This document shows positions 7,076-58,027 of a stretch of 64,000 bases of DNA, one piece after another (within the stretch, counting starts at the first letter, position 1; each line of letters opens with the position of its first letter). The stretch is taken from contig NZ_OY780939.1 of NCBI RefSeq assembly GCF_963675975.1, positions 1,178,001 to 1,242,000 of the forward strand. The letters run 5' to 3'. Below the pieces are notes generated by a model, which worked only from the letters and a program-made list of their open reading frames with translations, did no database searches and was not told where the DNA came from. Source of the stretch: Halarcobacter sp. GTDB taxonomy: Bacteria > Campylobacterota > Campylobacteria > Campylobacterales > Arcobacteraceae. The position numbers were made by a program, and so were the translations under genes.

Positions 7076-9091
7076 ATGAAAAAAAGTAATATTTTACTTA
7101 GCGCAATTACTTCATTCGCAATATTAAGTACTCATTCCCTTGCTGAGACTACAACATTAAATGAAGTTGAAGTAACATCTACAGATGTAGAAGTTGTAAG
7201 TTCTTCTATCAATCTAAACCAAACTTCTATTGAAACAAGACAAGCTGATCACTTAAGTGATTTATTAAGAGATATTCCAGGTGTTGATGTTGGGGGAAGT
7301 CACTCAATTAACAATAAGCTTACTATTAGAGGAATAAGAGACGAAAATATTGATATTACAATTGATGGTGCAAAAATGCCAAATGTTGATATTTTCCATC
7401 ATATGAGTAATCTTAGAATTAATCCAGCTATATTAAAAAAAGCAAAAATACAAGTTGGAAATAACTCAGTTATCCATGGAGATTTAGGTGGGGCTGTTGA
7501 GTTTGAAACAAAAGATGGTAAAGATATGCTTCAAAAAGGTGAATCTTTTGGAGGTATAGTTGAAGCTAACTATAATAGTAATAAAAGTAAAGGTGGTTCA
7601 TTAACTGGATTTGGAAAAGTTTCTGATAAATCAGATTTTTTACTTTATTATAAATATCTAGACAATGGAAACTGGAAAGATGGTGAAGGTAACAAAACTT
7701 TTGGTGTAGATGGAGAGATTTATAATTTCTTAGGAAAATATAATTATGATATTAGTGATTCTCAATCTATCACTTTTTCATATGATAGATTGCAAGATAA
7801 AGGGGATTATGTTCCTAGACCAAACTTTGGTGCAGCAGCAAATAGAATTATTTCTGGTGATGCAACTTATCCAACAAAATTTACAAGAGATACATATACT
7901 TTAAATCATGAATTAAATCTTGGTGAAAATCTAATTTTAGATACCTCTTTATATTATGGTTTACACACTATTGATAGATTTGAGTATATTGATGGAGTAA
8001 CAGGTGTAAGACCAGGTGGAGCTACAAGTGCAAATATTCATGGAAAAGTTAAAAACTATGGGATTAATACAAAAGCTCAATCAAATATAGAAACAGGAAA
8101 TATTTTACATACATTTACTTATGGTGCTGAATATGATATTCAATCAAGTGCAGTAACTAATGATGGTCTTCAATATGGAGATGATGAAAAAGCAAAATCA
8201 TTAGGCTTATATGTTCAAAATGCAATTGATTTTGATAATGGATTAATCTTAACACCTGGAATTAGATTTAATAACTATAAATTAGATGGTTTAAATGGTG
8301 ATGTAAATGACAATAAATTCACTTACTCATTAGCCGCTGATTATTCTTTTAATGACAATTTTAGTGTATTTGCAAGTTCTACTTCTTTGTTTAAAGGTGT
8401 AGAGATGGTTGAGGTATTATCAACTGCTAGAACAAGTTATGACAATAACCCAAATATCAAATCAGAAACTGGTTTAAATAGTGAGATTGGATTTAAATAT
8501 ATTGATAACAATATTTTAGGTGCAGATAATATTGGGTTCTCAACAAAATATTTCAAGACTACAATTAAAGATTATCTTGATTATGATGATATTGATGGAG
8601 ATACATTTGATGAAGCTTATAATGGTGGTAAACTAAATATTTATGGTATTGAATCAAGTTTTGCTTATAATCTAAATAACTTTAGTTCTTTATTGACTTA
8701 TACACATACAAGATCTGATTTTGAAGATACAGGAGATTCTTTAACAGAAGAAGCTGGGGATAAATTTAGTTTAAATCTAAAATATAAAGTAAATAAAGAG
8801 CTTGAATTATCTTGGAAATCAATAGTTGTACTTGATGAAGATGATCCAAGTAGTAATTTAAATGTTGATAGAAAAGAGGGATATGCTGTCCATGATATCG
8901 CTGTTAAATATGAGCCAAAAAGTGTTAAAGGTCTAAAAATTATTGCAGGTGTAGACAATATTTTTGATAAAACATATACTTCTCATGCTTCTGTAAATCA
9001 ATATTTCAACCATCCAAGATTTGGTTCAGGAGATGCAAACGATTATGATCCTGGAAGAAATTTTAAAGTAACTTTATCTTATAGATTCTAA
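7076..9091 (+). CDS. TonB-dependent outer-membrane receptor 1 (heme or siderophore type)
   Basis: 671 residues, usual for the family. A signal peptide ends near residue 23 (STHSLA), and a TonB-box-like LNEVEVTS follows. The plug domain contains LSDLLRDIPGVDV and IRGIRDENIDITIDGAKM. The rest is a 22-strand-type barrel ending in the terminal aromatic signature VTLSYRF. The plug wording and a NPNIKSETG segment resemble heme and hemoglobin receptors more than the FhuA/FhuE type, but the usual FRAP box is altered to FKGVEM and I see no clear axial His between the two. The substrate is therefore open. AAGGA precedes the ATG. It leads cassette 1 and is divergent from a two-component system, with a shared Fur site. 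Confidence 0.9.
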   Translation: MKKSNILLSAITSFAILSTHSLAETTTLNEVEVTSTDVEVVSSSINLNQTSIETRQADHLSDLLRDIPGVDVGGSHSINNKLTIRGIRDENIDITIDGAKMPNVDIFHHMSNLRINPAILKKAKIQVGNNSVIHGDLGGAVEFETKDGKDMLQKGESFGGIVEANYNSNKSKGGSLTGFGKVSDKSDFLLYYKYLDNGNWKDGEGNKTFGVDGEIYNFLGKYNYDISDSQSITFSYDRLQDKGDYVPRPNFGAAANRIISGDATYPTKFTRDTYTLNHELNLGENLILDTSLYYGLHTIDRFEYIDGVTGVRPGGATSANIHGKVKNYGINTKAQSNIETGNILHTFTYGAEYDIQSSAVTNDGLQYGDDEKAKSLGLYVQNAIDFDNGLILTPGIRFNNYKLDGLNGDVNDNKFTYSLAADYSFNDNFSVFASSTSLFKGVEMVEVLSTARTSYDNNPNIKSETGLNSEIGFKYIDNNILGADNIGFSTKYFKTTIKDYLDYDDIDGDTFDEAYNGGKLNIYGIESSFAYNLNNFSSLLTYTHTRSDFEDTGDSLTEEAGDKFSLNLKYKVNKELELSWKSIVVLDEDDPSSNLNVDRKEGYAVHDIAVKYEPKSVKGLKIIAGVDNIFDKTYTSHASVNQYFNHPRFGSGDANDYDPGRNFKVTLSYRF

Positions 9092-42654: not shown

Positions 42655-42689
42655 ATATTAAATAAAAGAAAACTTATTTTTAAGTAAAA

Positions 42690-42738
42690 CATGACAAGAA
42701 TCATGAAAAGATTATATATTTTTTATACAGTTCATGAC
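42690..42738 (-). promoter_or_regulatory. Candidate regulator-binding region (CATGACAAGAA and AGTTCATGAC motifs)
   Basis: The + strand holds catgacaagaa at 42690-42700 and tacagttcatgac at 42726-42738. Both are found fused at 58010-58027, before cassette 3, and partly at 49028-49063. The region precedes TonB system 2. It may be an operator for one of the AraC regulators or the IS1595-like protein; this is inference. Confidence 0.35.
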
Positions 42739-42754
42739 TCTTAATATGGATACT

Positions 42755-43249
42755 TTATCTGTTTTGTTTAAGTTCTTTCATCAATCTATTTGTATTTAAA
42801 ATACTTATTATAATTGTTGCTATTAGTAGAACAAATGCCAAGATTATTGAGTAAGTTGTAGCTTTACTTGTGGAAATTTCCATATTGGTTCTACTTGGTT
42901 GTTTAGCTTCTTTTTTTTGTTCTACTTTTTTAAAGCCATCTTTTGGTGGAATTCCATCTTTGAATACAGTATGTCCTGCTCCCCCATCTAAAACAACTTT
43001 GTAGGGAATTTTTGGAATATTTACAGTTAATTCAGAATTATCGTCAAGTCTTTTTTGAAATAAAATTTCATTTGAGTTAACTGCAATAAGTTTTACCATA
43101 GCTCCTGCGGCACTTTCTCCTGTATTGAACATACCTACTATTGTTATTGTTCCATCTTCATTATCTATTAAATTAAGAACTATAGAATGGGAAAATAAAT
43201 ATATAGGCAATATTAAAATTAAGATAATTTTTTTTAGTTTTTTCATCAT
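42755..43249 (-). CDS. Small secreted, membrane-tethered protein of iron cassette 2
   Basis: 164 residues. A signal peptide ends in IYLFS, so the mature protein would begin with His (HSIVLNL). The beta-rich domain includes DNEDGTITIVGMFNTGESAA, DDNSELTVNIP and GGAGHTVFKDGIPPKDGF, followed by a linker and one C-terminal helix (about 132-152). It aligns along its length with the proteins at 55537-56037 (closest) and 10933-11382. Function unknown; constant linkage to a PepSY gene suggests shared work in metal release or transfer. It is last in the four-gene cassette and directly follows the PepSY stop. Confidence 0.75.
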   Translation of the reverse strand: MMKKLKKIILILILPIYLFSHSIVLNLIDNEDGTITIVGMFNTGESAAGAMVKLIAVNSNEILFQKRLDDNSELTVNIPKIPYKVVLDGGAGHTVFKDGIPPKDGFKKVEQKKEAKQPSRTNMEISTSKATTYSIILAFVLLIATIIISILNTNRLMKELKQNR

Positions 43250-44818
43250 TTAACCTTGATTTTTATTTGGCCAAAAAGTTTTGGCATTTTCTCTATTTTT
43301 TGGAAGTAGTATTGATATAAGTATTAGAATAATTCCTAATAAAACTAGTGCAAAATCAACTCCAAATATATTAGTTAATCCAGTATTTATAAGTGTAAAA
43401 GGTGTGATTTCTAAATAAATATTATGGAATATCACTGATAATATAAAGATTATTCCTCCTATAAGGAAAAACTCTTTTGCAGCTTGGTAAGAGTTGATTC
43501 TATAAAAAGACCAAAATAGGGTAAATAACCAAGTATTATAAAAAATACCTTTTTGCCAAAGAACCCTTTCTTCTAAATTAAAAGGTAAAGTCCACTGAAG
43601 GAAAAAAAGCATTGCTGTTGCTGGTATAACCCCAATCATAGATGCTAAAGAGAATTTACCAAGCCAATGGTAAAAGCTAATTTTAGAATCAAATTTTTTA
43701 GCTTTTTTTTCAAGCCAAAGCATTGTTCCAAAACCTATTGCTACACAACATAAAAGCATAGAAAAAGCAACTAGTAATCTAGAAAAAATATCAATACCAA
43801 ATAAAAAATGTAAAAAGAATATTGATTCAGCTATAAAGACTGGCCAAGAGTTATCTAAAACTTTTTTTTCTTCTATCAATTTTGATGTAACAGCACTAAG
43901 TGTTATAGAGGGTTGATTAAATATTCCACCATTTAAAAAAGGTTTATATGGATTATAAGCAATTAATTCCACCCTTGCTGTTTTGTCATTCCAATTTATT
44001 AGTTTAATTTGTTTGAATTCTAAATCTGGATTAATACTTTTTGCTTTTATTAGTAGTTGGGAAACAGGTTGCATAATAGCTTTTTCACCATCTTTTTTTA
44101 TGGGCTCTTTTTGGGAAAATAGTATTTTCCCAACTACTGCATCAATAGCTTTAGCCTCACCTTTTGTAAGCATCATTGACATTGGTTGGGCACTTACTAA
44201 TCCCACATTCATAACAGCTCCACTTAACACAATAAGAATAAAAGGTAAAAATAGCCAAGTAAAAACTTTTACATGGATTTTAGAAAACATAGCCTGTTGA
44301 TTTCTACCTTTATTATTAAAATTAAATAGATAAATTAGAATCAATCCTGTAATTATAAGAACAAGGGTACCAACAGCAACAAAACCAAAAGAGAGTCTAC
44401 CAATGAAGTTAAGTGGTGCTCCATAGTGTAGTTCATTTAAAAAGTTTGCTAAATCTGATTTTTCTTTACTCTCTTCTTCAATTTTTTTGCCACTTGAAGG
44501 ATCAAATACTACAGGTTTTACAAACCTATGGGAAACACTTACAAGTGGGTCACCCATCCTTCCTGGTAGATTTATTAAAGCATTATTTTGGGGGAAAGTA
44601 GGGTCTTTAAATGTTTCATTTATAATTGAATTATAGTCTATTTTTGTGATATCAACTTTTTGAACATGTCTTGAAGGTTTTTCCCAAGTTTTGATATAAG
44701 GAAGTGTAATAGCGAAAATACCAAAAAAAATTGATATGTACATTATTAAAGAAAAAGTTATACCAGCAGCTACATGGATTCTAAAAAGTCGTTGTTTGAA
44801 AACTTGAGATTTTTTCAT
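43250..44818 (-). CDS. PepSY-associated membrane protein of iron cassette 2
   Basis: 522 residues. Helices near 17-38, 140-163, 188-210 and at least five in the C-terminal third (about 340-515), with two periplasmic PepSY-like parts between. Conserved with its paralogues are WEKPSRHVQ after the first helix, LNELHYGAPLNFIGRLSFG, HFLFGIDIFSRLLVAFSM and MIGVIPATAMLFFLQWTLP. It probably works in the inner membrane on ferric chelates, as proposed for PiuB/FsrB relatives. AAGGGAAA precedes the ATG. It lies between the small membrane protein and the small secreted protein, as in cassettes 1 and 3. Confidence 0.86.
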   Translation of the reverse strand: MKKSQVFKQRLFRIHVAAGITFSLIMYISIFFGIFAITLPYIKTWEKPSRHVQKVDITKIDYNSIINETFKDPTFPQNNALINLPGRMGDPLVSVSHRFVKPVVFDPSSGKKIEEESKEKSDLANFLNELHYGAPLNFIGRLSFGFVAVGTLVLIITGLILIYLFNFNNKGRNQQAMFSKIHVKVFTWLFLPFILIVLSGAVMNVGLVSAQPMSMMLTKGEAKAIDAVVGKILFSQKEPIKKDGEKAIMQPVSQLLIKAKSINPDLEFKQIKLINWNDKTARVELIAYNPYKPFLNGGIFNQPSITLSAVTSKLIEEKKVLDNSWPVFIAESIFFLHFLFGIDIFSRLLVAFSMLLCCVAIGFGTMLWLEKKAKKFDSKISFYHWLGKFSLASMIGVIPATAMLFFLQWTLPFNLEERVLWQKGIFYNTWLFTLFWSFYRINSYQAAKEFFLIGGIIFILSVIFHNIYLEITPFTLINTGLTNIFGVDFALVLLGIILILISILLPKNRENAKTFWPNKNQG

Positions 44819-44828
44819 TTATTTTCCC

Positions 44829-45128
44829 TTAGTATAAAAAATATAAAAATATTGAAAAGATTATAGAGGGGATTAAAAATCTTAAAAGAGCCTCTAATTT
44901 TGTAAAAGACAAACTAATCCAAATAGTAACACCAGCCCAAGCAAGAGTATTAAACATAATAGAAATAATCGCACTTTTTTGAATCTCTGTTGGGATTAAA
45001 AAAGCTAATAGTGTCATACCAAGATATGCCACTATTAAGCCTCCAAATATTGAAGTTATAATTCTAAATAATCCTATTTTTGACCCATTTGATTCAGGTG
45101 TAGATAAATATTTATAAAGTGAATTCAT
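44829..45128 (-). CDS. Small inner-membrane protein of iron cassette 2
   Basis: 99 residues, same length and layout as the 9102-9401 protein: a polar N-terminus (LYKYLSTPESNGSKIGLFR) and about three helices. It follows receptor 2 by 13 bases and precedes the PepSY gene by 10. No motif for catalysis or transport is seen. Confidence 0.75.
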   Translation of the reverse strand: MNSLYKYLSTPESNGSKIGLFRIITSIFGGLIVAYLGMTLLAFLIPTEIQKSAIISIMFNTLAWAGVTIWISLSFTKLEALLRFLIPSIIFSIFLYFLY

Positions 45129-47341: not shown

Positions 47342-48316
47342 TTATTTATTAAACTTTTTTTTGTAGTTTGTTGGAGTTATTCCATAAAATTTGAAAAATA
47401 ATTTGCTAAAGTTACCAATGTGTTTATATCCAACTTTTTGTGCAACCTCTTTTACACTGTAATTATCTTTTAAAAACTTTTTTGACATTTCTAGTCTATG
47501 TTTCTGCAACATTTCGTGTATAGTCATCCCATAATAGTATTTAAAATCTTTTTTTAAATAACATTCATTTACAGCTGATTTATATGAAATATCTTTTATG
47601 GATATAGGTTTGTTATATTCAGTTAATATTATTTGTTTTGCTCTTTCTAAGTAGTCAATTTTTTTTGTATCTAATTTATCTCCTGTATCGACTATATTTT
47701 GAAGTTTATTAATTGTATAGTGAATTAAATTTGTAGTTTTAGATTCAAAATATAATTGATTTAACAAATTTTCATCAAGTATTTTTTCTTTGAATGAACT
47801 AAGCATTTCAAGTTGTTCCGGGTCTATTTTTGTTCCTTCTAAAAGAGAATAGTTCTTTTCCTTTGCTTCATTCATCTTCTTTTTTAGTAATTCAAAGTTA
47901 TTTGTTAATTTTAAAAATAGTTCCTCTTTTATCCCTATTGTGAGAGTATTATAGTTGAGATTTTTATTTAGCAACATATGAACAATAAACTCATTAGAAG
48001 AAAAACCTATAAAAAATCTATTTCTTCTTAGTATATATTCTTTTTCATCTTTAAATCTGTATGTAATATCTTCTCCTAGATTGAAAATAATTACTGCACC
48101 CGCTACATTTGATTCTAATGAAATTATATAATTGTTATTAAGTGTATAGTTATTTGCTGAAGTAGCTATTCCATTACCTAAGTTATGCCAAACTAAAAAA
48201 CCTTCACCATATTTTGGTTTTATCTCTTCGGTTATAGTTTCTCTAGAAAATGGACTTATTCTTTTTTCAACTAAGTTAGTTAAGTCATAAGAGCTTATAT
48301 TTAAATCTTCATTCAT
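47342..48316 (-). CDS. AraC-family regulator (PchR-like)
   Basis: 324 residues. The N-terminal half (about 1-210) is a ligand-binding region without recognised fold. The C-terminal AraC domain has two helix-turn-helix units: PISIKDISYKSAVNECYLKK and YSVKEVAQKVGYKHIGNFSK, ending FYGITPTNYKKKF. PchR-like members bind a ferric siderophore and switch on its receptor. Receptor 2 lies directly downstream and receptor 3 nearby, both likely targets. The ATG has no ribosome site; a TAAAAT hexamer ends six bases before it, so the mRNA may be leaderless. Confidence 0.88.
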   Translation of the reverse strand: MNEDLNISSYDLTNLVEKRISPFSRETITEEIKPKYGEGFLVWHNLGNGIATSANNYTLNNNYIISLESNVAGAVIIFNLGEDITYRFKDEKEYILRRNRFFIGFSSNEFIVHMLLNKNLNYNTLTIGIKEELFLKLTNNFELLKKKMNEAKEKNYSLLEGTKIDPEQLEMLSSFKEKILDENLLNQLYFESKTTNLIHYTINKLQNIVDTGDKLDTKKIDYLERAKQIILTEYNKPISIKDISYKSAVNECYLKKDFKYYYGMTIHEMLQKHRLEMSKKFLKDNYSVKEVAQKVGYKHIGNFSKLFFKFYGITPTNYKKKFNK

Positions 48317-48366: not shown

Positions 48367-48984
48367 TTAGAGCTTAAAGAAGTTTGATAGTTGATTTACA
48401 AATGATTCTTGTGTGTAGTTGTGTCTTATGAAAGATTCTTTAATATGGGTTGTATAATTTGTTTTATTAATACCTCTAAATTTTTTTAATCGATTTATAA
48501 TAAAGGTTTCTACTTCATTTGAAGATTTTAAAAAACTTGAAACATAATATTCATTATTGTTAGCATTTAAAAGTACTCTTGCACAATTTGCTCTTTTATG
48601 ATTTATTAACAAATCTTTTAAAGTATTATTAATAAATTGGTTAAGTTTATTCAAAATTTTATTTTCTTCATTTATAAAATAGATTCTTGAACCATCTTGA
48701 ATATAAAAAATTGGATTAGAATTGTAGATAAAATATTTAATTGTTAAAGAATCTTCATTTAAGCAAGAAGATAGATATAAGCTATCACTCATATTTTGCT
48801 GGTCGATTAGATATGTTCTTATAATTTTATAGTAGCTATTTATTGTTTGTCTACTTAAACCAACTTTTTTAGCAGTTTCTATTGCAGTTAAATCTTCAGC
48901 AAAACAATTACAAATCATAAGTAGTTTTTCTTTTTTAAGCTTAGTATTTTTCATATGATTATTTATAAATTCTAATTTTGACAT
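48367..48984 (-). CDS. IS1595-transposase-like protein, probably domesticated
   Basis: 205 residues. The N-terminal part (about 4-60) reads like the IS1595 transposase N-terminus: KLKKEKLLMICNCFAEDLTA then ETAKKVGLSRQTINSYYKII, a clear helix-turn-helix. The C-terminal part (NRLKKFRGINKTNYTTHIKE) matches the IS1595 end, RLxKFxGIxKxxFYLHLKE. The middle lacks the first two catalytic acids (no DE-Y or SDG motifs), while the final Glu (VETF in place of IESF) is kept. No terminal inverted repeats, target duplications or partner genes were found. It lies between an AraC gene and receptor 3, divergent from the latter, so a DNA-binding regulator evolved from a transposase is the best reading. The ATG has no ribosome site, and TATACT ends five bases before it. 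Confidence 0.72.
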   Translation of the reverse strand: MSKLEFINNHMKNTKLKKEKLLMICNCFAEDLTAIETAKKVGLSRQTINSYYKIIRTYLIDQQNMSDSLYLSSCLNEDSLTIKYFIYNSNPIFYIQDGSRIYFINEENKILNKLNQFINNTLKDLLINHKRANCARVLLNANNNEYYVSSFLKSSNEVETFIINRLKKFRGINKTNYTTHIKESFIRHNYTQESFVNQLSNFFKL

Positions 48985-48989
48985 AAATT

Positions 48990-48995
48990 AGTATA
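48990..48995 (-). promoter_or_regulatory. -10-like hexamer at the IS1595-like gene start
   Basis: On the minus strand TATACT ends five bases before the ATG at 48984 with no ribosome site between, so a leaderless mRNA is possible. The divergent gap (48985-49151) also holds the Fur-like site of receptor 3. Confidence 0.35.
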
Positions 48996-49027
48996 TTAAA
49001 AAAAAATGTGAAAAAAATGTGCATAAA

Positions 49028-49063
49028 TATAGTTCATACAGATATTATTTTTTACTTGTCTTG
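49028..49063. promoter_or_regulatory. Candidate regulator-binding region before receptor 3
   Basis: Contains tatagttcataca (49028-49040) and tacttgtcttg (49053-49063). These resemble the AGTTCATGAC and TTCTTGTCATG motifs found before TonB system 2 and cassette 3, although less exactly. Confidence 0.28.
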
Positions 49064-49123
49064 ATAGAAGTAGTAATAAAGATTTTGTAAGATAAGTTCG
49101 GAAATAATTGCATTAATAGATTT

Positions 49124-49138
49124 TGATAACTAGTATCA
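49124..49138 (+). promoter_or_regulatory. Fur-box-like operator before receptor 3
   Basis: The sequence tgataactagtatca differs from TGATAATNATTATCA at two of 14 informative bases. It ends 13 bases before the receptor ATG, so it overlaps the leader or promoter. Confidence 0.65.
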
Positions 49139-49151
49139 ATAAAGGAGAATT

Positions 49152-51292: not shown

Positions 51293-51300
51293 AATAAATA

Positions 51301-51315
51301 TGATAATCACTATTA
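51301..51315 (+). promoter_or_regulatory. Fur-box-like operator before the second two-component system
   Basis: The sequence tgataatcactatta has a perfect left half and two mismatches in the right half of TGATAATNATTATCA. It lies 20 bases before a TATAAT, as expected for a repressor that blocks the promoter. Confidence 0.55.
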
Positions 51316-51334
51316 AAATTAAAGAAAAGTTTTG

Positions 51335-51345: not shown

Positions 51346-52023
51346 ATGTCAAGAAATGAATACAAAAATTTAAAAATATTATATGTAGAAGATGAAGAGT
51401 TTATTAGGAAAAATGCCGTTTCCTATTTAAATAGATTATTTGATAATGTATTAGAAGCTAGTAATGCTTTTGAAGCTATGCAAATAATTGATAATGAAAA
51501 GCCTCATGTTGTAATAACTGATATAAAAATGCCTAAATTAAATGGTCTTGATATGGTTAGAAAAATTAGAGAAAATGATAAAAAAACTCAATTTATAGTT
51601 TTGTCTGCATATACAGATACTAAATTTCTTTTAGATGCAATTGATTTGGGTTTAATAAAATATCTGACAAAACCAATAAGACATGAAACAATTTTTCCTT
51701 TACTATTGAATTGTGCAAAATCAATCTTCACAAATCCTTGCAATATAAAAATATTATGTGAGAATTGTACTTTTGATAAAGAGTTAGAACTCTTAAAAGT
51801 TGATGAGAAGTTTGTAAAATTAACAAGAAACGAGCAACTTTTTTTGAAACTTTTGTGTGAAAAATCACCTGCTGCAGTATCTTATGATCAATTACAAAAC
51901 TATATATGGAAAGATGAGTATATGTCAGAAAATGCAATTAGACTTTTAGTTCGTGATTTAAGAAAAAAATTGCCTCAAAATATTATAAAAAACATCTCAA
52001 AAATTGGATACAAGATAGATTAG
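51346..52023 (+). CDS. Response regulator with winged-helix output domain
   Basis: 225 residues. The receiver domain (about 8-125) has phospho-acceptor Asp59 in ITDIKMPKLNG and the Lys in LTKPI. A short Cys-containing linker (NPCNIKILCENCTF) follows. The OmpR/PhoB-type DNA-binding domain (about 145-225) shows LTRNEQLFLKLL and AIRLLVRDLRKKLP. It pairs with the kinase that begins three bases after its stop. Its place between receptor 3 and that kinase, with a Fur-like site upstream, suggests control of siderophore uptake genes. It is the counterpart of the pair at 4399-6942. Confidence 0.88.
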   Translation: MSRNEYKNLKILYVEDEEFIRKNAVSYLNRLFDNVLEASNAFEAMQIIDNEKPHVVITDIKMPKLNGLDMVRKIRENDKKTQFIVLSAYTDTKFLLDAIDLGLIKYLTKPIRHETIFPLLLNCAKSIFTNPCNIKILCENCTFDKELELLKVDEKFVKLTRNEQLFLKLLCEKSPAAVSYDQLQNYIWKDEYMSENAIRLLVRDLRKKLPQNIIKNISKIGYKID

Positions 52024-52026
52024 TTG

Positions 52027-53745
52027 ATGCGAATATTTTTTATTTTTTTTATTTTTTTATCAAATTTATATAGTTCAAATTTATACGACAAACTTGTTGA
52101 TAAGTTTTACATATCAGAAGATCTGCAAAGCTATAAACAATTAACAAAAACAAACTATAAACAATACAATAATATAAAACTAAAACAATTTTCAGTAAAA
52201 ATAGTGTTAAAAAAAGAGGTTTTAGAAAATAGTGTTTATTATGTGAATGTGATTTCAGATATGGATTCTTTAGTTTATACAAATACAAAATATACCAGAA
52301 TCAACAATACTATAACTATAAAATTAGATAAAAATACACCTAATATTTTATATTTTCAATATAAGTATAAAGTACCTAAAAGAGGAGAATTTAGATACTC
52401 ACCTATGAGTGAGTTTGAATATAAATATATATATTACAATGAAGGGATACTTTATGGAATTGCATATGGAATAATTTTTTGTGCATTTCTTTATTATCTA
52501 ATCATATCTTTTTCAAGTAGAAGAAAATATTTCTTGTATTATTCTTTAATGCAGTTATGCGTTTTAATATCTTTAATCTGCTTTACATATTTTAGTTTTA
52601 AACCATATATTTCAAATTTTGAACAAGCTTTTGTAGATTTTTTTGAAACTACTGCTTTTCTTTTTACTCTTCTTTTTTCAAAAGAGGTTTTAAATACAAA
52701 AAAAATTATGCCAAGATTTAATCTTTTGATAAATATTTTTATAGTTTTAAATTTAGTAGATTTATTTGCTATTACTATTTTTAAATACTCAATTCTTTAT
52801 AAATATTGTTCTTTTTATATAGGCTTTCTTATACCTTTTGTTGCTGGTATTATTGCAATTTACAATAAAAATAGATATGCAATAATATATACAATTGGCT
52901 GGTTTATGATGGTATGTTTTCTATTTTTCATAGAAAACTTTATGTTCCCTTTAAGTGGTATTTATGCAATACATATAGCAGCTCCTCTGGAATCTATGAT
53001 ATTTAGTTTTGCTTTAGGTATTATGTTAAAAGATTTAGTGGAAGAACAAAATGAAAAAGAAAAATTACTAATTCACAAAAGTAAACTTATCTCAATGGGA
53101 GAGATGTTAAACAATATTGCCCATCAGTGGAGGCAACCTTTAACTCACTTAGGTTTTATAAATATGAATATTCAACTTTCATTAGAAGATAAAAGTATAG
53201 ATAAGGAGTATTTAAAAGAGAAAATTGAGGAATCAAATTCTCAAATTGATTTTATGTCTGATACAATAAATAGTTTTAGGGATTTTTATAAACCACAAAA
53301 AGATAAAGAGTTTTTTTATATCTCCCAAGCCGTAAAAAACTCAATAGATATTATGAAACCTTTATTGGGTATTTATGATATAAAATTAGATTTTTTAGTT
53401 ATAAATGATATTAAAATAAAATCTTATAAAAATGAATACTCTCAAGTTATTTTAAATCTAATAACAAATGCAAAAGATGAATTAGTTTTAAATAAAGTAA
53501 AAAACCCAACAATTGTCATAAAAGTGGATAGTATTGATAACAAGAGTTTAACCACTGTTTGTGATAATGCAGGAGGGATAAAAGAGGAAAATATCAATAA
53601 AATATTTGAACCATATTTTAGTACAAAAGATAGCGGTAGTGGAATAGGGCTATATATGTCAAAAACGATAATAAACTCCCATTTTAAAGGTGAACTTGTG
53701 GCTCAAAATAAAAAAATGGGAGCTTGTTTTAGTGTGAAAGTTTAG
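52027..53745 (+). CDS. 7TM-type sensor histidine kinase
   Basis: 572 residues from the ATG at 52027 (an in-frame TTG lies three bases earlier). A signal peptide (about 1-17) and a periplasmic beta-rich domain (to about 138) precede seven hydrophobic segments (about 140-335), a 7TMR-DISM-like layout. The HisKA box has NIAHQWRQPL, and the ATPase domain has ILNLITNAKDEL, CDNAGGIKE and GSGIGLYMSK. 7TMR-DISM kinases are thought to bind extracellular ligands through the N-terminal domain; the ligand is unknown. It forms an operon with the response regulator. Its stop overlaps the stop of the convergent yitT-like gene by 4 bases. Confidence 0.88.
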   Translation: MRIFFIFFIFLSNLYSSNLYDKLVDKFYISEDLQSYKQLTKTNYKQYNNIKLKQFSVKIVLKKEVLENSVYYVNVISDMDSLVYTNTKYTRINNTITIKLDKNTPNILYFQYKYKVPKRGEFRYSPMSEFEYKYIYYNEGILYGIAYGIIFCAFLYYLIISFSSRRKYFLYYSLMQLCVLISLICFTYFSFKPYISNFEQAFVDFFETTAFLFTLLFSKEVLNTKKIMPRFNLLINIFIVLNLVDLFAITIFKYSILYKYCSFYIGFLIPFVAGIIAIYNKNRYAIIYTIGWFMMVCFLFFIENFMFPLSGIYAIHIAAPLESMIFSFALGIMLKDLVEEQNEKEKLLIHKSKLISMGEMLNNIAHQWRQPLTHLGFINMNIQLSLEDKSIDKEYLKEKIEESNSQIDFMSDTINSFRDFYKPQKDKEFFYISQAVKNSIDIMKPLLGIYDIKLDFLVINDIKIKSYKNEYSQVILNLITNAKDELVLNKVKNPTIVIKVDSIDNKSLTTVCDNAGGIKEENINKIFEPYFSTKDSGSGIGLYMSKTIINSHFKGELVAQNKKMGACFSVKV

Positions 53746-55536: not shown

Positions 55537-56037
55537 TTAGTGTGACTCTTTTATTGATCTTAAAATCTTATTTGTATTACTAATACTAAAATATATTGTA
55601 AGTAAAAAAAGTACAAATGCGAGCAAAAATAGAATTATAGTTATGGTATTCCATTGTTTAGTTAGCTCTCTTGGTTGAGAAAGGGCGTTTGTTTTTTTAT
55701 CTTTTTTTAAAATCTCTTTTGAAAAGCCTTCAATAGGAGCAATACCCTCTTTAACAATTTGATGATTAGGGCCACCATCTAAAACTATTTGATAAGGTTC
55801 TTTAGGTATTTCAATTATTAATTCACTTGAATCAGGAAGTCTTTTTTTATATAAAACCTCTCCTGAAAGTAATGATTCTAATCTTACCATTGCACCAACT
55901 GCAAACTCTCCGGTGCTAAATTCACCTGTAACAAGTATTGTATTATCTTCATTATCCATTATATTCATCAATAGTGTATGTGCATTGAGAATAGTACTTA
56001 AAATAAAGATTGAAAATAGATATGTGATTTTTTTCAT
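55537..56037 (-). CDS. Small secreted, membrane-tethered protein of iron cassette 3
   Basis: 166 residues. A signal peptide ends in TILNA, giving a mature N-terminal His (HTLLMNI). The domain runs through DNEDNTILVTGEFSTGEFAV, DSSELIIEIPKEPYQIVLDG and GPNHQIVKEGIAP, then a linker and one helix (about 134-156). It is closest to the cassette 2 protein. Function unknown. It follows the PepSY stop by 10 bases, with AAGGA before its ATG. Confidence 0.75.
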   Translation of the reverse strand: MKKITYLFSIFILSTILNAHTLLMNIMDNEDNTILVTGEFSTGEFAVGAMVRLESLLSGEVLYKKRLPDSSELIIEIPKEPYQIVLDGGPNHQIVKEGIAPIEGFSKEILKKDKKTNALSQPRELTKQWNTITIILFLLAFVLFLLTIYFSISNTNKILRSIKESH

Positions 56038-56047
56038 AAGTATTCCT

Positions 56048-57628
56048 TTAAAGTTTATTTTTCCAAAATCTTTGAGCTTGGTTTCTATTTGCTGGAAGTT
56101 TTTTACAGATATAAAATAAAATTATGCCAAAAGTAAATAATCCAATATCTACACTAAGTATTTCAGTCATATCCTCTTTAAACAATTTAATTGGTGAAAA
56201 TCCACTATTATAAAAATGAATAAGTGGTGCCATAATAAAAAATACTGAAGCTATAGCTAGAAACTCTTTTGCAGCTTTGTATGATTCTATTCTATAAAAT
56301 GACCACATCAATGTAGCAATCCAGAATACAAAGAATATTCCTTTTTGTAAGAGGAATCTATCCTCTATATTATATGGTAATAGCCATTGAAGAAGGAATA
56401 TAAGACCAGTTGCAGGAATTACACCAATCATAACTGCTAAGGATAATTTCCCCATCCAATTATATACAGGAATTTTTTTAGGAAATTTTCTAGCCTTTTT
56501 TTCTAAGTATAATAATACACCAAAACCTAATGCAAAAGTTGCTGCTATCATAAGTAAAGCAATCAAAAGTCTTGTTACTGTATCAACACCAAATAATAAG
56601 TGTAGGAAAAACATTGTGTCGTATACTAATCCAGACCAGTGTTTATCTAATACTCTTCTATCCTCAATTAAAGTACCATCTTTTCCACTAAGAGTTACAC
56701 TTGGTTTGTTTGTAATTCCATTTAAAAAAGGCATATATGGATTATAGCCTTCAAGTTTTACAATTGCAGTTTCATCTTTCCAATTGATTAATGTAAGTTT
56801 TTCAAAATCTATTTGTGGATTGATTTTTTGTGCTTTTTTTATTAATTCATTAATAGGCAACATTTGCACTTGATTATTTGTCTTTTCTATATGTTTTATT
56901 GGTGGGTATAGTATGGGACCTACATATTTCCAAGTTTCAAAAGATTCCCCTTTTGATTTTAAATATGTCATTGGTATAGAGCCTGAATAACCAATATTCA
57001 TAAGTGCACCAGTTAATGTAATAATAATAAAAGGCGCAAATAACCAAGTAAAAATTTTTCTATGCCATTTTGAAAATTTGCTTTGATTGTTTTTCCCATT
57101 GTCTTTATATTTTATTAATATAACTTGTATTAATCCACCTATAACCAAAAACATTACAGCTACAGCCATAAAACCAAATATCATATAACCAAATTGTTTT
57201 AAAGGTCCTCCATAGTGCATTTTGTTTAAAAATTCTGCTAGCTTAGATTTATCTCCTTCATTTTCAACTTTTTGTAAAGTATTTGGGTTAAAGATAATTG
57301 GTTCAACAAATTGATGTGAAATTTTAAGTGCAGGATCATGTTGGAAACCAGGCAGAGTAATAATTATATTGTTTTTAGGAAAATCTGGATTTGATATAAC
57401 AGGATCAATCATAGAAGAATAATTTATAGCTGTAATATCAGGAGTTTTGAAATGTCTAGATGGTTTTTCCCAGATTTGAATAAATGGTAATAAAATTGCA
57501 AATATTCCAAAAAATAGTGCGATATACATGATTAAAGAAAAACTAATTCCTGTTGTAGCATGTACTCTTTGTAGCTTTTGTTTTAATAATTTATTATGTT
57601 CTCTTTTTGTTAAGTTATTGTTCATCAT
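56048..57628 (-). CDS. PepSY-associated membrane protein of iron cassette 3
   Basis: 526 residues from the first of two adjacent ATGs (57628 or 57625; the AAGGTAG site favours the second slightly). Layout as in cassettes 1 and 2: a first helix (about 27-48), WEKPSRHFK, LNKMHYGGPLKQFGYMIFG, paired helices near 195-215 and a C-terminal bundle with MIGVIPATGLIFLLQWLLP. It is most like the cassette 2 protein. A role in ferric-chelate reduction or iron release at the inner membrane is proposed from the family. The gene begins at the base after the small membrane protein's stop. Confidence 0.86.
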   Translation of the reverse strand: MMNNNLTKREHNKLLKQKLQRVHATTGISFSLIMYIALFFGIFAILLPFIQIWEKPSRHFKTPDITAINYSSMIDPVISNPDFPKNNIIITLPGFQHDPALKISHQFVEPIIFNPNTLQKVENEGDKSKLAEFLNKMHYGGPLKQFGYMIFGFMAVAVMFLVIGGLIQVILIKYKDNGKNNQSKFSKWHRKIFTWLFAPFIIITLTGALMNIGYSGSIPMTYLKSKGESFETWKYVGPILYPPIKHIEKTNNQVQMLPINELIKKAQKINPQIDFEKLTLINWKDETAIVKLEGYNPYMPFLNGITNKPSVTLSGKDGTLIEDRRVLDKHWSGLVYDTMFFLHLLFGVDTVTRLLIALLMIAATFALGFGVLLYLEKKARKFPKKIPVYNWMGKLSLAVMIGVIPATGLIFLLQWLLPYNIEDRFLLQKGIFFVFWIATLMWSFYRIESYKAAKEFLAIASVFFIMAPLIHFYNSGFSPIKLFKEDMTEILSVDIGLFTFGIILFYICKKLPANRNQAQRFWKNKL

Positions 57629-57946
57629 CTACCTTGTATAAAGTATTATAATAGCAATTGAAAATAATAATATAGGGAAAAAAGTTCTTTTTAAAGCAAT
57701 AATTTTAGATGGTGACAATGCGATCCAAAGTGCACTGATTGCCCAAGCTAAAGTATTTAATAAAAGAGGAATTAATATTGCTTCACCTATTGTCCCTGGA
57801 ATTATAAATGTGAGTAGAGACATAGCTAAATATGCAACTAGTAGACCTCCAAAAATAGAACAGAGTGTTATAAATAAACCAATTTTTTTACTGTTTAGTT
57901 GTGGTTTGGATAATTCATTATATATATTATTTATTTTTTTAATCAA
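57629..57946 (-). CDS. Small inner-membrane protein of iron cassette 3
   Basis: 105 residues from a TTG at 57946, chosen because AGGT lies at usable spacing, the paralogues begin at this point of the alignment, and the longer ATG start at 57982 lies on a Fur-box-like site. The N-terminus (IYNELSKPQLNSKKIGLF) matches the 99-residue proteins of cassettes 1 and 2, and three helices follow. No receptor gene stands upstream, unlike in the other two cassettes; the next gene upstream is divergent serS. Confidence 0.7.
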   Translation of the reverse strand: MIKKINNIYNELSKPQLNSKKIGLFITLCSIFGGLLVAYLAMSLLTFIIPGTIGEAILIPLLLNTLAWAISALWIALSPSKIIALKRTFFPILLFSIAIIILYTR

Positions 57947-57966
57947 AATACTACCTAATTTAATTT

Positions 57967-57981
57967 TGATAATTGTAATCA
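57967..57981 (-). promoter_or_regulatory. Fur-box-like operator before iron cassette 3
   Basis: The sequence tgataattgtaatca has a perfect left half and two mismatches in the right half of TGATAATNATTATCA. It lies 20 bases upstream of the TTG start and over the alternative ATG. Confidence 0.62.
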
Positions 57982-58009
57982 TTTGTCTGTAAAAGAGTTC
58001 TTAATTTAA

Positions 58010-58027
58010 CATAGTTCATGACAAGAA
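58010..58027 (-). promoter_or_regulatory. Candidate regulator-binding site before cassette 3
   Basis: The 18 bases catagttcatgacaagaa join two motifs that occur separately at 42690-42700 (catgacaagaa, exact) and 42729-42738 (agttcatgac, exact) before TonB system 2. It is about 65 bases upstream of the cassette 3 start. Confidence 0.38.

Follow-up and report, generated by a model that had tools for sequence, protein, structure and literature searches.

What does a gene whose product resembles the two ends of a transposase do when it lies intact, in single copy, beside a siderophore receptor? The question arises in a 64,000-nt stretch of an Arcobacteraceae genome (hereafter, the window), where a sequence-only reading had proposed an IS1595-derived protein domesticated as a regulator. 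We confirmed that observation overall, and the interpretation as a domesticated regulator is supported and extended. On balance, we favour the view that the protein is a domesticated, catalytically dead IS1595 (IS1016-type) transposase, now serving as a sequence-specific relay activator of a siderophore-uptake regulon. Homology, catalytic loss, the conserved locus, co-occurrence, and the conserved motifs with their positions are shown by computation. The reading's description of the locus held, both for the intact frame and for a gene divergent from the receptor with a PchR-like AraC gene beside it:

48367..48984, minus strand: IS1595-derived presumptive transcription regulator; intact 205-aa ORF with an ATG start, one copy in the genome
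49152..51266, plus strand: TonB-dependent siderophore receptor (FhuE/FauA-like), divergent from the 48367-48984 gene
51346..52023, plus strand: OmpR-type response regulator, co-occurring with the transposase-derived gene
52024..53745, plus strand: 7TMR-DISM sensor histidine kinase
47342..48316, minus strand: AraC-family regulator (PchR-like), adjoining the gene but no constant partner

Searches with the single protein against Pfam and NCBIfam gave only weak, generic, sub-threshold HTH matches, and those in the PDB were likewise too weak. The NCBIfam IS1595 model NF033547 matched residues 13-60 weakly (E = 0.098) and scored 12.5 bits, far under its 75-bit cut-off. The claim is therefore unproven by single-sequence search, and it is family profiles that prove it. 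Using hhalign, we compared 19 aligned family members with 10 short IS1595 transposases from Campylobacterota; the two families aligned end to end over 204 columns (99.0%, P = 3.5 × 10−18). Tested alone, the N-terminus (aa 1-74) matched with P = 6.2 × 10−12, and the C-terminal part (aa 75-205) matched over 48 columns with P = 2 × 10−11, its signal coming from the last 50 residues. The middle (aa 75-150) had no detectable sequence similarity to the transposases in the same comparison (P = 0.73), and controls with column-shuffled, reversed, response-regulator, and AraC alignments all gave P ≥ 0.015. The family HMM also found true IS1595 ORFs in other genomes, separately at both ends. When bacterial genomes were searched with a sequence pattern, we recovered one true IS1595 transposase, from an Oscillospiraceae genome and 41% identical across the HTH. 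Both ends of the 205-aa protein are thus homologous to short (IS1016-type) IS1595 transposases, and the identification of the N-terminal HTH and the C-terminal segment as the two IS1595 ends held under profile comparison with controls. In a phylogenetic tree, the placement of the family inside IS1595 was unresolved (support 21/42).

Since sequence alignment fails in the middle of the protein, we assigned the columns of the first two catalytic acids (D1 and D2) through two structure models. The AlphaFold model of the focal protein (7 sequences, pLDDT 86, pTM 0.82) predicts HTH helices followed by b-b-b-a-b-b-a-a-a; the model of an active IS1595 transposase predicts an HTH followed by b-b-b-a-b-a-b-a-a-a, which has one more helix and is otherwise the same. 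Foldseek with the active IS1595 model recovered the ISCth4 transposase and retroviral integrases (E to 2 × 10−5), and with the focal model it found no fold relative in the PDB. For an RNase H-like fold in the focal protein, the matching order of elements thus speaks in favour and the empty Foldseek search against. By this assignment, the D1 position is K83 in the focal protein and K, N, Q, Y, T, or G in the family (mostly K, never D), while D2 falls near N140 (N, K, or C in the family). The third acid position is E159, with E, D, Q, or N across the family. With D1 and D2 lost in all 19 relatives and the third acid variable, catalytic activity of the focal protein is very unlikely, within the limits of a model-based column assignment. 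The earlier claim that the first two catalytic acids are lost held, for the whole family; an intact DDE triad, which would have refuted that reading, was looked for in the model and the alignment and was not found.

A referee might object that this is an ordinary HTH regulator whose IS1595-like ends arose by convergence or chance. In favour of this alternative are the weak, generic HTH matches of the single sequence and a middle without similarity or fold match. Against it, the match at the C-terminus (RLKKFRGINK...HIKES..RFN aligned with RLxKFKGIKKENFxLHLKECEFRFN) does not involve an HTH and reaches significance by itself at the P value given above, and the structural elements are colinear with those of IS1595. 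We consider this explanation highly improbable.

To return to the proposed domesticated transposase, its close family was present in 17 of 80 searched genomes, at 18 places, and a 19th place lies on the Arcobacter cloacae plasmid pACLO, where the gene is annotated as hypothetical. We found no full-length members outside Arcobacteraceae in a sample of 249 genomes of the phylum, and no relative of the family in the viral contigs searched. At each of the 19 places, a TonB-dependent receptor homologue is nearby, directly divergent from the gene in 14, and so is the kinase and/or response regulator. The prediction that orthologues would sit beside TonB-dependent receptors and not be scattered therefore held. 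An orthologue of the response regulator (over 220 bits) occurred in 17 of 17 gene-carrying genomes and in only 1 of 63 others (G041). AraC orthologues are absent from two genomes (G013 and G023), both of which keep the gene and the promoter motif described below. The emphasis that the sequence-only reading placed on the AraC neighbour thus needs correction: the constant partner of the gene is the two-component system at 51346-53745. Around the gene we found no terminal repeats that form a convincing pair, in line with the earlier claim; a single IS-end-like sequence lies in the gap shared with the receptor gene. On pACLO, an operon for RND efflux, with permease, adaptor, and TolC genes, comes after the gene (L021:12001-17561), and such an operon is also near the gene in G023.

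Could the gene be a functionless, decaying transposase remnant that lies near a receptor by chance? The catalytic residues are lost, and active and decaying IS1595 copies do exist elsewhere in Campylobacterota. Against this, all 19 aligned members are full-length ORFs (36-65% identity to the focal protein) with 20 invariant columns, and the promoter architecture is kept; we regard the remnant explanation as virtually ruled out. That the ORF is kept intact at a conserved locus even though catalysis is lost is what one would expect of a transposase-derived transcription factor. Two other Campylobacterota genomes (G227 and G297) carry many short IS1595 copies together with decaying fragments that have internal stops, in contrast with the fixed, intact family.

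How such a factor might be wired is suggested by its promoter regions. The upstream region of the gene contains:

48990..48995, minus strand: -10-like hexamer TATACT, 5 nt before the ATG
49006..49021, minus strand: direct repeat CACAT-TTTTTT-CACAT with a period of 11 bp, occupying the -35 position of the gene; predicted box for an OmpR-type response regulator

Comparing aligned intergenic regions and the sequences upstream of the members, we found the direct repeat at a fixed distance before the gene in 22 of 22 members, with a unit that varies by clade (CACAT, GCCAT, or GCCCT), and it stays before the gene even where the receptor sits elsewhere. The -10-like hexamer is about 5 nt from the ATG, its place hardly varying among the listed members, and from its position the transcript is predicted to be leaderless. 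OmpR/PhoB regulators act via tandem 11-bp repeats at the -35 region, and because such repeats typify these regulators we assign the repeat to the response regulator. In G041, which has the response regulator and lacks the gene, the repeat is directly before the receptor (L262, about 7974-8003); it also precedes the receptor in the second system copies of G006 and G015. Its presence before the receptor where the gene is missing and the regulator present makes it probable that this is the response regulator's site; we infer this as likely, without binding data. We set aside the possibility that the repeat is an autoregulatory site of the transposase-derived protein itself, as it precedes receptors at loci that lack the gene and the sister clade described below lacks it. 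The G041 arrangement may represent the ancestral wiring. Another exact copy of the box (ATGTGGAAAAAATGTG) occurs at the start of a TonB-dependent-receptor-like gene (G000:C1:1541442-1541457; L150, L151).

A second signal, CTTRTCATGW followed by TAAG after N12 or N23, occurs in 26- or 37-bp forms that are one helical turn apart. Three candidate operators lie in the window:

49055..49091, plus strand: 37-bp form (CTTGTCTTGA-N23-TAAG), receptor promoter
42673..42698, minus strand: 26-bp form, before the DUF3450/ExbB/ExbD/TonB operon
58000..58025, minus strand: 26-bp form, before the second PepSY_TM operon (55537-57982)

Receptor promoters carry the 37-bp form, and TonB/ExbB and PepSY operons the 26-bp form; downstream of the element is a -10-like sequence and often a Fur-like sequence too. 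Across 49 genomes, 24 of 35 matches in gene-carrying genomes had one of these two exact lengths, compared with 4 of 32 matches in other genomes (p = 4 × 10−6), and 20 of the 35 lay within 30 kb of the gene, where 0.7 would be expected. These proximity and length counts took 18, not 17, genomes as gene-carrying, with no substantive change. In held-out genomes, the figures were 19/60 and 10/86 (p = 0.005), counted by hand over an incomplete set of matches. The p values are optimistic, as the genomes are related and motif discovery and the first test used overlapping loci. G029 carries the gene, yet we found no exact motif match there. One can see in CTTR and TAAG a pair of inverted half-sites, spaced by two or three helical turns, which would fit a dimer. 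The window also holds two copies of a three-gene cassette (a protein of about 100 aa, a PepSY_TM protein, and a protein of about 165 aa) at 55537-57982 and 42755-45128. Such cassettes accompany TonB receptors across Arcobacteraceae, and the two small proteins of the copy we tested had no Pfam match.

We consider the element a strong candidate for the operator of the transposase-derived protein, with the binder inferred from co-occurrence and position in the absence of binding data. This is also the weakness of the relay reading, as the motif could be recognised by a different factor whose presence co-varies with that of the gene. In the corresponding rival, a domesticated DNA-binding protein is accepted, the element is bound by the response regulator, an AraC protein, or an unknown factor, and the transposase-derived protein is only an autoregulator, repressor, or cofactor. 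Its support is that the motif was assigned by co-occurrence and position only and that the response regulator co-occurs equally tightly. Against it, the AraC protein is disfavoured as the binder by its missing orthologues in G013 and G023; for the response regulator there is already a better candidate site, and neither the 26- nor the 37-bp form occurs in G041, where the regulator is present and the gene is missing. We judge this rival unlikely.

Two Fur-like sites complete the relay that we prefer:

49119..49141, plus strand: weak Fur-like site by the receptor ribosome-binding site (14/19 to consensus, P = 0.046)
51299..51321, plus strand: Fur-like site before the response-regulator gene (14/19, P = 0.01)

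The Fur-like site that had been noted in the shared gap therefore held, though weakly, and that view of the gap is extended by two further conserved elements. In the proposed circuit, iron starvation would relieve Fur at the response-regulator/kinase gene pair; the kinase would sense a cue, and the response regulator would bind the 11-bp direct repeat and activate the leaderless promoter of the transposase-derived gene. The transposase-derived protein, probably a dimer via its N-terminal HTH, would then bind CTTRTCATGW-N12/N23-TAAG and activate the receptor, the TonB/ExbB operon, and the PepSY operons. Which protein binds which motif, activation as opposed to repression, the signals, and DNA binding itself are all inferred, with no binding or expression data. 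The role of DNA-binding regulator thus remains an inference, now with a specific predicted operator. Two wiring states are visible, one without the gene (G041), with the box at the receptor, and one with the gene, with the box at the gene and a different element at the receptor; the origin of the regulatory relay is therefore directly testable.

The operator also bears some likeness to IS1595 ends. Related active elements end in GGCTCAAGATAAGTTAAAAAC and GGCTCAAGACAACTTAAG; the complements of these ends include CTTATCTTGA and GTTGTCTTGA, and the operator in the window reads CTTGTCTTGA. A matrix built from 26 operator sites, with the motif defined before the IS ends were examined, matched four different IS ends in one constant register (column-permutation p 0.003-0.007, joint tests). 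This comparison was post hoc, and the likeness is strong in some elements only. In a whole-intergenic test, the IS-end match in the shared gap begins the comparison well: it sits 83 nt before the gene, with the orientation seen in the IS (p = 0.019), and most orthologues were individually not significant. Because the whole-intergenic results were mixed, derivation of the operator from an IS end is kept as suggestive only.

A sister family has an N-terminal zinc ribbon and the same C-terminal segment as the focal family, and matches both IS1595 (A3, P = 2.9 × 10−16) and the focal family (P = 1.3 × 10−11). It is present in roughly 60 of 249 Campylobacterota genomes, including the source genome (G000:C1:1915805-1916443, minus strand; L114), with others at L038, L039, and L115-L147. 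Its neighbours are the hydrogenase-maturation genes hypB/C/D/E/A and hypF: of 34 regions picked from different families, 30 had hyp genes within a few genes of it, and it is often divergent from hypB. A short distance upstream of the sister gene is a conserved element, CTTATATATTTTTGGAAC-N-AAA, which often falls in the intergenic region between that gene and hyp genes (for example, L118, L122, and L124). The sister protein is possibly a regulator of hydrogenase maturation. In the tree, the two clades are each fully supported and separate, so one or two domestications are both possible. A bolder reading, which we consider less likely than not, is that transcription factors derived from DDE transposases form a class in Campylobacterota, with two separate clades (an iron-uptake relay and a zinc-ribbon/hydrogenase-maturation clade), and that the iron-clade operator came from the terminal repeat of a captured IS. 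Protein and site would then have been domesticated jointly, as a relay interposed between a two-component system and the target it once controlled directly.

If the relay reading is true, it would give a function to Arcobacteraceae genes now annotated as hypothetical, and the sister clade would provide a candidate regulator of hydrogenase maturation in many Campylobacterota. Compared with IS1595 (IS1016-type, NF033547) transposases, the focal protein shares the N-terminal HTH, the C-terminal RL.KF.GI...HLKE.EFR.N, colinear structural elements, and possibly the recognised DNA sequence; it differs in having lost the DDE triad and the helix between strands 4 and 5, and its gene differs in having no terminal repeat pair, a single copy, and a fixed locus. 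The literature searched, which left most subscription literature uncovered, yielded no case of a bacterial transcription factor that originated from IS1595 or any other DDE transposase. Eukaryotes offer well-documented cases in which transposases became transcription factors, such as FHY3/FAR1 and ZBED6 (PMC13306707, PMC2780926); the focal protein is instead bacterial, of a different superfamily, and wired to a two-component system. TnpA-REP (RAYT), which has been called the first domesticated transposase of prokaryotes, is likewise a fixed, host-kept relative of an IS transposase, but it is of another transposase type, is tied to dissemination of REP sequences, and is not a proposed transcription factor (PMC8266576). 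The nearest bacterial analogue is TldR, a group of TnpB-derived, RNA-guided transcription factors (PMC13418256). TldR is also a bacterial regulator built from a transposon protein, whereas the protein described here stems from a DDE transposase, and its recognition of DNA is presumably direct.
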